Source of the DNA: a virus | IMG/VR virus record: IMGVR_UViG_3300025789_000108 | Coordinates: 1-31,240 of that record | DNA length: 31,240 bases | Direction: 5' to 3' (one strand) | Translations under genes and position numbers: made by a program | Shown: one piece after another, positions 8,359 through 15,930 of the stretch | Layout of the letters: every line of letters starts with the position of its first letter | Numbering within the stretch: the stretch's first letter is position 1 | Notes under the pieces: generated by a model | The model's database searches: none | Seen by the model: the letters and a program-made list of their open reading frames with translations, nothing else | Told to the model about the DNA's origin: nothing

Positions 8359-8507
8359 TATTTCTTACCTTTCATTGTTTTCTTTTCTGCTTCACGCTTA
8401 ATTGCGTAACTGATGGCAACTGCTTGCTTAACTGGCTTACCAGCCTTCACTTCAGTTTCGATGTTTTTCTTTTGAGTCTTCTCAGACTTACCTTTAATGA
8501 GTGGCAT
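8358..8507 (-). CDS. 49-aa Lys-rich phage protein of a type often seen near terminase genes
   Basis: The frame starts at ATG 8507 with AAGGA 8 nt upstream and ends at TAA 8360-8358. The product begins MPLIKGKSEKTQKKNIETEV and contains the run AGKPVKQAVAISYAIKREAEKK. Short Lys-rich proteins with an MPLIK start and a KQAVAIA-like core occur in many phages near packaging genes. No function is established. Its Shine-Dalgarno lies inside the 3' end of the HNH gene upstream. Confidence 0.75.
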   Translation of the reverse strand: MPLIKGKSEKTQKKNIETEVKAGKPVKQAVAISYAIKREAEKKTMKGKK

Positions 8508-13946: not shown

Positions 13947-14141
13947 ATGGATTACCCAAAATGCTTTCCCAATTACGATCACTACAGGAGTTGGGTAGAA
14001 CTAGCTCGTTTGGCTCGTGAAGTTGTCTCACCTTGCGATGATTGCAACGTGAAATATCAATTAAAAATGAAAAAGTTGGATTTGTGCGACAGAGATCGTG
14101 TAAAGACAATTGTGATTCGTATGCAACGTAAAAAGGTATAA
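13947..14141 (+). CDS. 64-aa Cys-containing protein, first gene of the rightward operon
   Basis: The product starts MDYPKCFPNYDHYRSWVELA, followed by ARLAREVVSPCDDCNVKYQL with a CxxC pair (30, 33) and a further Cys at 47. Small phage proteins with MDYPxCPxxY and SPCxDCxxxYQ are common in early regions and may bind zinc. The role is unknown. ATG 13947 has GGA 5 nt upstream. It ends just before the structured leader of the next gene. Confidence 0.7.
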   Translation: MDYPKCFPNYDHYRSWVELARLAREVVSPCDDCNVKYQLKMKKLDLCDRDRVKTIVIRMQRKKV

Positions 14142-14147
14142 TGTTTT

Positions 14148-14240
14148 GAAACCTGGCTAGGGTAGCTCCCGAAAAGACGATTCTTCACCGTCCTGCCAAA
14201 GTTTCTTTTCCGTGAAGTCAACCTATGAAGTAAGGTTTAT
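14148..14240 (+). ncRNA. Structured RNA leader of the replication gene (riboswitch-like candidate)
   Basis: This 99-nt gap can fold into a three-way junction. The closing stem pairs GAAAC (14148-14152) with GTTTC (14201-14205) and TGGC (14154-14157) with GCCA (14195-14198). One hairpin is GGG/CCC (14160-14162, 14168-14170) and another GACG/CGTC (14176-14179, 14189-14192). The loop of the second hairpin holds CTTCAC (14183-14188), complementary to GTGAAG (14212-14217), which would make a pseudoknot. A last hairpin AACCT/AGGTT (14220-14224, 14233-14237) covers the AAGG Shine-Dalgarno. I do not recognise a known class. It was folded by eye only. Confidence 0.4.
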
Positions 14241-14993
14241 ATGCACTATTTCCCCTTTAATATTAAAGACTATGCCAGTCATACTGGTCACTTGTCCATC
14301 ATTGAAGATTTAGCCTACAGACGGCTACTTGAACAATACTATCTTTCTGAACGTCCGTTAGACGATTGTTTAACGGCTCTTGCACGTCTGATAAGGATGA
14401 AAGAGTATGAAGAAGAAATTAAAACTGTACTTTATGAGTTTTTTACATTAACGGACGATGGTTGGATTAACGAACGTGCGCTGAAAGAAATAAGCCATTA
14501 CCAATCAAAAATTGACCAAGCGTCTAAGGCTGGTAAAGCGTCTGCTCAACGCAGGTTAAACGGAAGTTCAACGGACGTTCAACCAACCAACAACCATAAA
14601 CCATTAACCATAAACCAAGAACCAATTATTAAAGAACCTAAAGGTTCTTTGTCCGAACCGAGGGTTCTGACTTGCCCTCAACAAGAGATTTTAAAACTTT
14701 GGAGTAAGCATTTGCCCCACTTAACGCAACCTAGGAGTTGGGAGGGTAATCGACAGGCAGCACTTCGGCAGAGATGGATTCAAGCGAGTAAACCCTCAAA
14801 CTATTCGCCTAAAGGCTATGGTACTGTCGAGGATGGGCTATCCTGGTGGGATTCGTTTTTTGGTTACATTGCCAACGATACAACCTTAGCCAAAGGGTTT
14901 GAAACGAAAGACCGAACGTGGAGGCCAGACTTGGAATGGATCGTAAATGCAACCAATTTTCAAAAAATCATTGATGGGAAATACAACAAATGA
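14241..14993 (+). CDS. DUF1376 (YdaU-like) replication initiation protein
   Basis: The 250-residue protein begins MHYFPFNIKDYASHTGHLSI, then EDLAYRRLLEQYYLSERPL (about 22-40), the hallmark of the DUF1376/YdaU domain (about 1-95). A GKASAQRR segment and a low-complexity Asn/Pro/Thr linker (about 105-140) follow. The C-terminal domain has the pattern WxSFFGYIANDTTLAKGF...WRPDLEWIVNATNFQKIIDGKY (about 203-250), typical of phage proteins related to DnaT/GntR-like primosome parts. It probably acts as an O-like replisome loader. AAGG precedes ATG 14241 inside a hairpin, so translation may be regulated. Confidence 0.85.
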   Translation: MHYFPFNIKDYASHTGHLSIIEDLAYRRLLEQYYLSERPLDDCLTALARLIRMKEYEEEIKTVLYEFFTLTDDGWINERALKEISHYQSKIDQASKAGKASAQRRLNGSSTDVQPTNNHKPLTINQEPIIKEPKGSLSEPRVLTCPQQEILKLWSKHLPHLTQPRSWEGNRQAALRQRWIQASKPSNYSPKGYGTVEDGLSWWDSFFGYIANDTTLAKGFETKDRTWRPDLEWIVNATNFQKIIDGKYNK

Positions 14994-15190
14994 GCTTTGC
15001 TAAACCTGAAATAATGCGTGAAACACCTGATGAAACACACCGTTTGATGTGTTCTGTAAACGGTTGTAACAACAGATGGTCTGTCAACATGGGGTCACCA
15101 AAATGCTCGTTTCATCAATGGGGGCCTAAAACACAAAATTCAACAACCAAAGTTGTGAGCAATTGGTACGAAAAGGAGAATCATGAATGA
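14990..15190 (+). CDS. 66-aa probable zinc-binding protein
   Basis: Its ATG forms an ATGA overlap with the replication gene. The product has the pattern CSVNGCNNRW (C21, C26) and then KCSFHQW (C39, H42), which suits one zinc. It starts MSFAKPEIMRETPDETHRLM. Its last 8 nt overlap the methyltransferase start and its last 4 the start of the overprinted gene, so three frames are in use at 15187-15190. Its role is unknown; a DNA- or RNA-binding helper of replication is possible. Confidence 0.72.
   Translation: MSFAKPEIMRETPDETHRLMCSVNGCNNRWSVNMGSPKCSFHQWGPKTQNSTTKVVSNWYEKENHE
15173..15189 (+). promoter_or_regulatory. Shared ribosome binding site for two starts 4 nt apart
   Basis: AAGGAG (15173-15178) lies 4 nt before ATG 15183 (methyltransferase) and 8 nt before ATG 15187 (overprinted gene). 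The second spacing is nearer the optimum, so one site could feed both frames. Confidence 0.6.
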
Positions 15191-15923
15191 GTTGGCTCTT
15201 TTCGCAGGCGCTGGTGGAGGAATACTTGGGGGACATTTGCTCGGATGGAGAACAGTCTGTGCCGTTGAGTGGGAACAATACCCAGCAAGCGTACTGTGCG
15301 CCCGACAAAATGACGGCCTTCTCCCGCCTTTCCCGATTTGGGATGACGTACAAACCTTTGACGGAAGACCGTGGAGAGGAATTGTTGACGTTGTTTCGGG
15401 AGGATTTCCATGCCAAGACATCTCAGCAGCAGGAAAAGGCGCAGGAATTGATGGAGAACGATCAGGAATGTGGGGACAAATGGCTCGCATCATTCACGAG
15501 GTACGACCAAAGCACGTCTTTGTGGAAAACTCACCAATGCTCACTTCTAGGGGACTTGGACGAGTTCTTGGAGACTTGGCCTCAATGGGGTTTAATGCGA
15601 GATGGGGAGTGTTGGGAGCAGGTGACATTGGAGCGCCACATCAGAGAGATAGAATTTGGATTGTCGCAAAAGAAGTGGCCCACACCAGTTTGCCAGGATT
15701 CAAGACACGCAATCAGCAGACATCTAGACTCGACCAACCAACATTGGAAAAGCAATCTTGGAGAAGTGGTGATGAGCTTAGAGCCAACTACGGATGGCCG
15801 GTTGAACCCAACGTGGGTCGAGTGGTTAATGGGATGGCCTCTAGAGTGGACAGACTTAAAGCCATTGGCAATGGACAAGTTCCTAGAGTGGCAGCAGTTG
15901 CATGGAATATACTCTCAGAATGA
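15183..15923 (+). CDS. C5-cytosine DNA methyltransferase, compact phage type
   Basis: The 246-residue protein has the C5-methyltransferase motifs. Motif I is LFAGAGGG (6-13, AdoMet binding), motif IV GGFPCQDIS (73-81, catalytic C77) and motif VI VFVENSP (112-118, E115). Motif VIII is HQRDRIWI (153-160) and the motif X-like LKAIGNGQVPRVAA (225-238). The target-recognition part between VIII and X is very short (about 45 residues), so specificity may be relaxed or set differently. Phages use such enzymes to escape restriction. The whole gene is overlapped by a second ORF in the +1 frame (15187-15930). AAGGAG lies 4 nt upstream of the ATG. Confidence 0.92.
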   Translation: MNELALFAGAGGGILGGHLLGWRTVCAVEWEQYPASVLCARQNDGLLPPFPIWDDVQTFDGRPWRGIVDVVSGGFPCQDISAAGKGAGIDGERSGMWGQMARIIHEVRPKHVFVENSPMLTSRGLGRVLGDLASMGFNARWGVLGAGDIGAPHQRDRIWIVAKEVAHTSLPGFKTRNQQTSRLDQPTLEKQSWRSGDELRANYGWPVEPNVGRVVNGMASRVDRLKAIGNGQVPRVAAVAWNILSE

Positions 15924-15930
15924 TGTTTAA
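15187..15930 (+). CDS. Overprinted gene in the +1 frame of the methyltransferase (SLWKT/ETWPxxGLM family)
   Basis: An uninterrupted 247-codon frame covers the full methyltransferase gene. Its product has ordered motifs I recognise from free-standing phage proteins: MSWLFSQALVEEYLGD (1-16), LSRFGMTYKPLTE (48-60), SLWKTHQCSLLGD (111-123), ETWPQWGLMRDGECW (129-143), WPTP (164-167) and LNPTWVEWLMGWPLEWTDLK (206-225). Such proteins are usually annotated hypothetical or methylase-like; none of the motifs is a catalytic signature. The start ATG lies 8 nt after AAGGAG, better spaced than the methyltransferase start. Trp is unusually frequent. A shadow frame this long is improbable at this base composition, and the motifs argue that it is translated. 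Confidence 0.75.
   Translation: MSWLFSQALVEEYLGDICSDGEQSVPLSGNNTQQAYCAPDKMTAFSRLSRFGMTYKPLTEDRGEELLTLFREDFHAKTSQQQEKAQELMENDQECGDKWLASFTRYDQSTSLWKTHQCSLLGDLDEFLETWPQWGLMRDGECWEQVTLERHIREIEFGLSQKKWPTPVCQDSRHAISRHLDSTNQHWKSNLGEVVMSLEPTTDGRLNPTWVEWLMGWPLEWTDLKPLAMDKFLEWQQLHGIYSQNDV

Follow-up and report, generated by a model that had tools for sequence, protein, structure and literature searches.

What does the 99-nt gap in front of a putative replication gene of this virus encode, and does it control the gene behind it? The window analysed here is the whole stretch of DNA, a 31,240-base virus record, and its scanned open reading frames include genes for head, portal, terminase, tail and lysis proteins. 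The gap (14142-14240) separates a 64-aa ORF (13947-14141) from a DUF1376 gene on the + strand (14241-14993; Pfam PF07120, E = 7.8e-22, and PHROGs), which is primosomal or replication-initiation-like and is the predicted regulated gene. A preliminary description of this DNA had placed the gap correctly and read it as a three-way-junction RNA with a pseudoknot and a hairpin over the Shine-Dalgarno (SD) sequence, acting as a riboswitch, a protein-binding leader or an antisense-controlled site that gates replication. Further along the same strand, two ORFs of 246 and 247 aa (15183-15923 and 15187-15930) occupy almost the same bases, each in its own frame. The 246-aa product is a C5 cytosine methylase (PF00145; phrog_363, E = 2.3e-66); that of 247 aa has a match to a DNA methyltransferase family (phrog_1008, E = 5.6e-24) and to no Pfam family, and the two ORFs are possibly an overprinted gene pair.

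An Rfam scan of the whole window returned a single match, to the int-alpA RNA (RF02996) at 14150-14218, with a score of 39.6 bits against a gathering cut-off of 35.8 and with model positions 1-71 of 71 covered. The RNA at 14150-14218 is a full-length int-alpA RNA, a predicted transcript of an already known family that the preliminary description, which had proposed such a scan, missed. The unconstrained minimum-energy fold of 14140-14260 includes both features on which that description had staked its proposal, the three-way junction and the AACCT/AGGTT hairpin. All elements of the junction lie on the + strand. Stem P1 pairs a 5′ strand at 14148-14157 (GAAAC plus TGGC; fold and Rfam alignment) with a 3′ strand at 14196-14205 (CCA plus GUUUC; fold), and encloses the joining strand J1/2 (UA, 14158-14159; Rfam consensus), the P2 hairpin GGG-UAGCU-CCC (14160-14170; fold and Rfam alignment), J2/3 (GAAAA, 14171-14175; Rfam alignment and DUF1376 leaders), the P3 hairpin GACG-[AUUCUUCAC]-CGUC (14176-14192; fold and Rfam alignment) and J3/1 (CU) with the G that closes P1 (14193-14195; Rfam alignment). 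The RF02996 joining strands UA, GAAAA and CU are present by both the Rfam alignment and the fold. The fold is about as stable as its base composition would predict (z = -0.04; 88 of 200 shuffles equally good), and stability was dropped as evidence, so the case rests on the comparison of homologues, which upholds the junction alongside the fold and the Rfam match.

RF02996 is typed “sRNA” by Rfam and its model holds the three-way junction only. The window matches the whole model above the gathering score and has in common with it the junction and a U-rich tail, whereas the Rfam structure line contains no pseudoknot, no P4 hairpin and no gene start. The consensus carries a loop CCuUua and a terminal uaAgGG, which resemble the pairing of loop L3 with site A described below and are left unmarked in the structure line. 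The name int-alpA presumably refers to a gene neighbourhood; among the ORFs scanned with Pfam and PHROGs there is no integrase or AlpA gene beside the element, and this neighbourhood is not taken as a defining feature of RF02996. The family is said to come from a 2017 report. Within the excerpts that the literature search returned, int-alpA appears only as a genome match in a listing, RF02996 is absent, and there is no description of a loop with two targets. Because this coverage is limited, the claim to novelty is restricted to what the Rfam model omits, the pseudoknot and P4, and others may have noticed these before.

Homologues came from two pattern scans of viral contigs, one of genome contigs, and a DUF1376 protein search that used no RNA pattern, giving at least 426 sources including the window. 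The parser required CTA-P2-GAAAA-P3-CTG and a P1 of at least 2 pairs; among the matches listed it found 342 hits in 333 of the 426 sources, and 325 hits in 317 sources passed the pair count. At least 280 unique int-alpA members were parsed, and the family is larger than the sample; where the parser found nothing, the source is a chance hit of the pattern, a leader cut short, a variant of the exact strings or a DUF1376 locus that lacks the element. A gene start is present in 77 of the 80 DUF1376 loci, and there are 59 unique leaders in this set. The exact CTA..GAAAA..CTG strings occur in 46 of them, and by eye the other 13 are five near variants, two leaders truncated by the contig end and six without the element, the last (6/59) running contrary to a general rule. 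Two DUF1376 leaders without the junction (L157 and L159) have a hairpin-like tail (GACCAAC...GAGGT) before the start, possibly a decayed or split form of the element. The P2 hairpin is almost fixed in a large part of the family (GGGTAGCTCCC in 142 of 280 members among the matches listed, a constancy partly imposed by the search patterns), and in DUF1376 leaders it is often swapped for a long form with GAAGTCATGAG in its loop. E. coli genomes searched with one leader region gave no match.

The position of the element relative to genes is regular, with a start codon 28-74 nt 3′ of the junction in 263 of 280 members among the matches listed. The genes themselves are diverse: clustering the proteins encoded first after 256 of the members gave 102 protein clusters, of which the largest has 67 members (DUF1376 representative) and the next 25, all among the matches listed. 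Some of the 86 cluster representatives scanned, out of 102, match antirepressors (P22_AR_N, Rha, AntA, KilA-N), and others HNH and GIY-YIG nucleases, integrases, replication initiators, a primase and a helicase. The earlier idea that the RNA gates replication agrees with the DUF1376 gene downstream in this phage, and is too narrow for an element that precedes about 100 gene families.

The loop of P3, which we call L3 (14180-14188, +), is antisense-like and, from covariation and the P4 analysis, is a candidate to pair with either of two downstream sites. Its bases CTTCAC (14183-14188) are the exact complement of GTGAAG at 14212-14217 (+), the proximal partner or site A, with which they would form a pseudoknot; this pairing had been proposed in the preliminary description and is reinforced by the covariation of L3 and A in homologues. 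That description recognised this one downstream partner and overlooked a second, competing target, site B (TGAAG, 14226-14230, +), in the loop of the P4 hairpin beside the SD sequence. For each homologue, site A was taken as the best antiparallel match to L3 between P1 and the start codon, outside the last 14 nt, and site B as the best L3 match after A, while the null gave each L3 the downstream stretch of a different member, one with no 4-mer of L3 in common (300 swaps). Column-based pair counting was discarded because spacing varies. Over 163 distinct loops among the matches listed, site A scores 14.51 against 8.56 when swapped (sd of the swap means 0.17, maximum 8.98) and site B 13.30 against 9.52 (sd 0.17, maximum 10.05), so that in the homologous leaders, where the preliminary description had suggested looking for covariation, both sites track L3. 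The covariation of A and B holds, again among the matches listed, with one member per protein cluster (n = 90), in genome contigs (n = 63), in DUF1376 leaders (n = 19) and in viral pattern loci (n = 81). Individually, 127 of the 163 listed loops exceed the 95th percentile of swaps for A, 53 for B and only 45 for both. In the window alone, 3 of 115 swapped leaders do as well at site A and 27 of 115 at site B, the latter not significant by itself. In nine-base loops, C-G, T-A and A-T pairs occur at positions 4-8 whichever of the two sites is considered, and G-C pairs at some of these positions.

Site A starts a median of 15 nt after CTG, and site B lies a median of 7 nt after A and ends a median of 6 nt before the start codon, among the matches listed. 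Both exceed modest thresholds in 148 of the 163 listed loops, usually with 4-6 nt of loop overlap, and 102 of these 148 have a site B that shares bases with the best SD match. Since A and B claim the same L3 bases, L3 is predicted to have two mutually exclusive targets, one of them at the ribosome site, and its overlapping footprints give the exclusive pairings that are typical of a riboswitch. As further L3 targets, neither GTGAAG nor TGAAGAAT shows a clear excess in the window; a GTGAAG pair near 8390-8450 was rejected as a target, lying inside a coding stretch.

The P4 hairpin, AACCT-[ATGAAGTA]-AGGTT (14220-14237, +), covers the SD sequence AAGG of the DUF1376 gene (14232-14235, +), as the preliminary description had noted, and is supported by the minimum-energy fold and by stem scores in homologues. 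Among the matches listed, the stem flanking B has a score of 8.94, where swapped 5′ flanks give 4.92 (maximum 5.61), and the stretch after A folds with a mean of -3.45 kcal/mol compared to -1.51 kcal/mol for shuffled sequence. The stem has at least 4 bp in 95 of 148 listed members and fewer than 4 bp or none in 53, so P4 is common, not universal. A two-codon mini-ORF, ATG AAG TAA (14225-14233), had also been pointed out here. It is not conserved: among DUF1376 leaders examined by eye, L136 carries AGAACGTAAGG at that place and therefore has no such mini-ORF, and the motif is best explained as the P4 loop, a second copy of the L3 target.

The folded leader of the preliminary description was accurate as far as it went, and passed over a promoter-like box belonging to the element. 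A TATAAT (14137-14142, +) shares bases with the stop codon that ends the upstream ORF. It begins 20 nt before CTA, a spacing more frequent than any other among the homologues listed. Hexamers resembling a -10 box (at least 5 of 6 matches) lie 16-29 nt before CTA in 81 of 215 non-redundant upstream stretches among the matches listed, a zone chosen after the box was seen in the window, compared to 11, 14 and 6 in three zones of equal width and 29.7 (sd 4.7) after shuffling. There is no good -35 box at the TATAAT of the window, and a strict scan for -35/-10 consensus does not list 14137-14142. The 20-nt distance predicts an RNA start at the foot of P1, near 14148-14150, and transcription probably begins at the first base of P1. 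An intrinsic terminator before site A was rejected as a general feature, because a run of four T precedes A in only 35 of 127 members among the matches listed.

From these patterns we favor, with a probability of roughly 0.6, a mechanism in which L3 represses translation at the ribosome site and site A acts as its competitor. The junction would present the P3 loop as an antisense arm. Bound to B, L3 would block the ribosome and turn the gene off, and bound to A, which would serve as a decoy or insulator, it would be kept away from its own ribosome site. In this phage, the DUF1376 replication protein would be limited. Covariation supports site A itself, while its decoy role and the repression at B are what we infer. 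Of the three roles suggested earlier, the antisense-controlled site comes nearest, and the earlier interpretation as a whole is partly supported. Within the repressive reading, action purely in cis and action in trans have about even odds. In the trans version, a short form without A, produced by termination or processing, may hit B on other transcripts as C4 RNA does, and the long form would be the mRNA.

The loop codes bear on this choice. A search with RF02996 of 98 records reached through the sampled loci found two copies in 9, among the matches listed. In the 7 records whose copies were parsed, each loop suits its own A better than the A of the other copy in all 14 comparisons, and for B the same is true of 11 of 14 (matches listed). 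One such pair (L448 and L449) has a similar backbone, with loop, A and B changed together. In the record of leader L124 (L452 and L453), the DUF1376-leader copy is followed after about 1.3 kb by another int-alpA RNA, whose loop code differs. Loops are identical in 12% and 10% of pairs at protein identities of 60-70% and 70-80%, respectively, among the matches listed. Rapid, insulated loop codes are the pattern of trans-acting antisense systems, and drift in cis could resemble it. A tentative extension, which we hold to be somewhat less probable than its opposite, is that int-alpA RNAs are widespread self-coded antisense switches in the phages and prophages of many bacterial groups, in which a constant junction bears a freely variable loop with two matching targets, with the loop code setting which phages or gene copies silence one another, as in immunity or incompatibility.

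The strongest rival, though an unlikely one, is a purely cis-acting riboswitch, whose junction would bind a small molecule or protein and shift L3 between A (on) and B (off). The junction letters barely vary while the loops do, although outside the DUF1376 set the search patterns account for part of this constancy. The pairing energies of A and B are similar, with a mean difference of -0.74 kcal/mol over 148 members among the matches listed; in the window, L3:B is weak, at -4.2 kcal/mol versus -6.6 kcal/mol for L3:A, which speaks against the repressive reading. The very diverse downstream genes would suit a shared signal, yet gene content suggests no ligand, and a cis riboswitch needs neither fast code turnover nor non-matching codes in co-resident copies, although drift could yield them.

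It is a good deal more doubtful that pairing of L3 with B activates the gene, perhaps because it opens or holds the P4 hairpin. Site B does sit in the loop of the hairpin that contains the SD sequence, and pseudoknots activate in some plasmid replication leaders, such as that of ColIb-P9 repZ. Excerpts of the IsrK literature offer a phage precedent in which the short form activates (PMC4825925). Against this, the overlap of B with the SD match (102 of 148, matches listed) means that pairing at B should block the ribosome. A DNA element, such as origin repeats or an operator, is very improbable: two direct repeats and inverted repeats do adjoin the replication gene, but the junction letters, their orientation and their distance are tied to a start codon (the 263 of 280 listed members above), about 100 protein families lie downstream, and a covariance model matches. 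A chance fold in an intergenic gap, with which the z of -0.04 would agree, is refuted by the Rfam match and the comparative data (loop/site covariation and P4 scores).

The repressive reading gives a concrete, testable mechanism for a family known in Rfam only as a predicted sRNA, and the Rfam model probably omits the working part of the int-alpA RNA. If the loops act in trans, reading their code from sequence could predict interference between phages. Designed translation switches could also draw on a code of loop, decoy and ribosome site for which nature offers orthogonal examples.

Among known systems, IsrK (RF01394) of Gifsy-1 likewise exerts translational control over a downstream phage gene. 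Excerpts of its description report a short RNA and a read-through mRNA made from one promoter, and activation of anrP in trans (PMC4825925). IsrK differs in that it activates and in its fold, which is unlike that of the window RNA, and the whole-window Rfam scan, which lists int-alpA only, contains no match to RF01394. The P4 CI RNA, as given in excerpts of the same source, is an antisense RNA for which a single leader holds two complementary sites, seqA and seqC (PMC4825925). The two sites on one leader are a likeness; in the CI RNA, however, one site lies upstream and one downstream, the target is transcription termination, and the RNA belongs to the C4 family. Identity of the window RNA with P4 CI or N15 CA RNA was rejected, as those regions match the C4 and IsrK models, not int-alpA. 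In both N15 (L430) and P4 (L431), an RNA of the IsrK family adjoins one of the C4 family.

The closest parallel is with C4 RNA (RF01695), which is encoded just before its target. In the excerpts available, it is described as an antisense RNA whose sequence complements the ribosome-binding region in the mRNA of a phage gene and which sets P1/P7 heteroimmunity (PMC12197685). The window RNA resembles it in having a loop complementary to a ribosome-binding region (site B, at the level of the family). The C4 fold is longer and different, and the Rfam scan finds no match to the C4 model in the window, while P4 and N15 do match it. The best reading, by analogy, is that the window RNA would work like C4 and is not a member of the C4 family.
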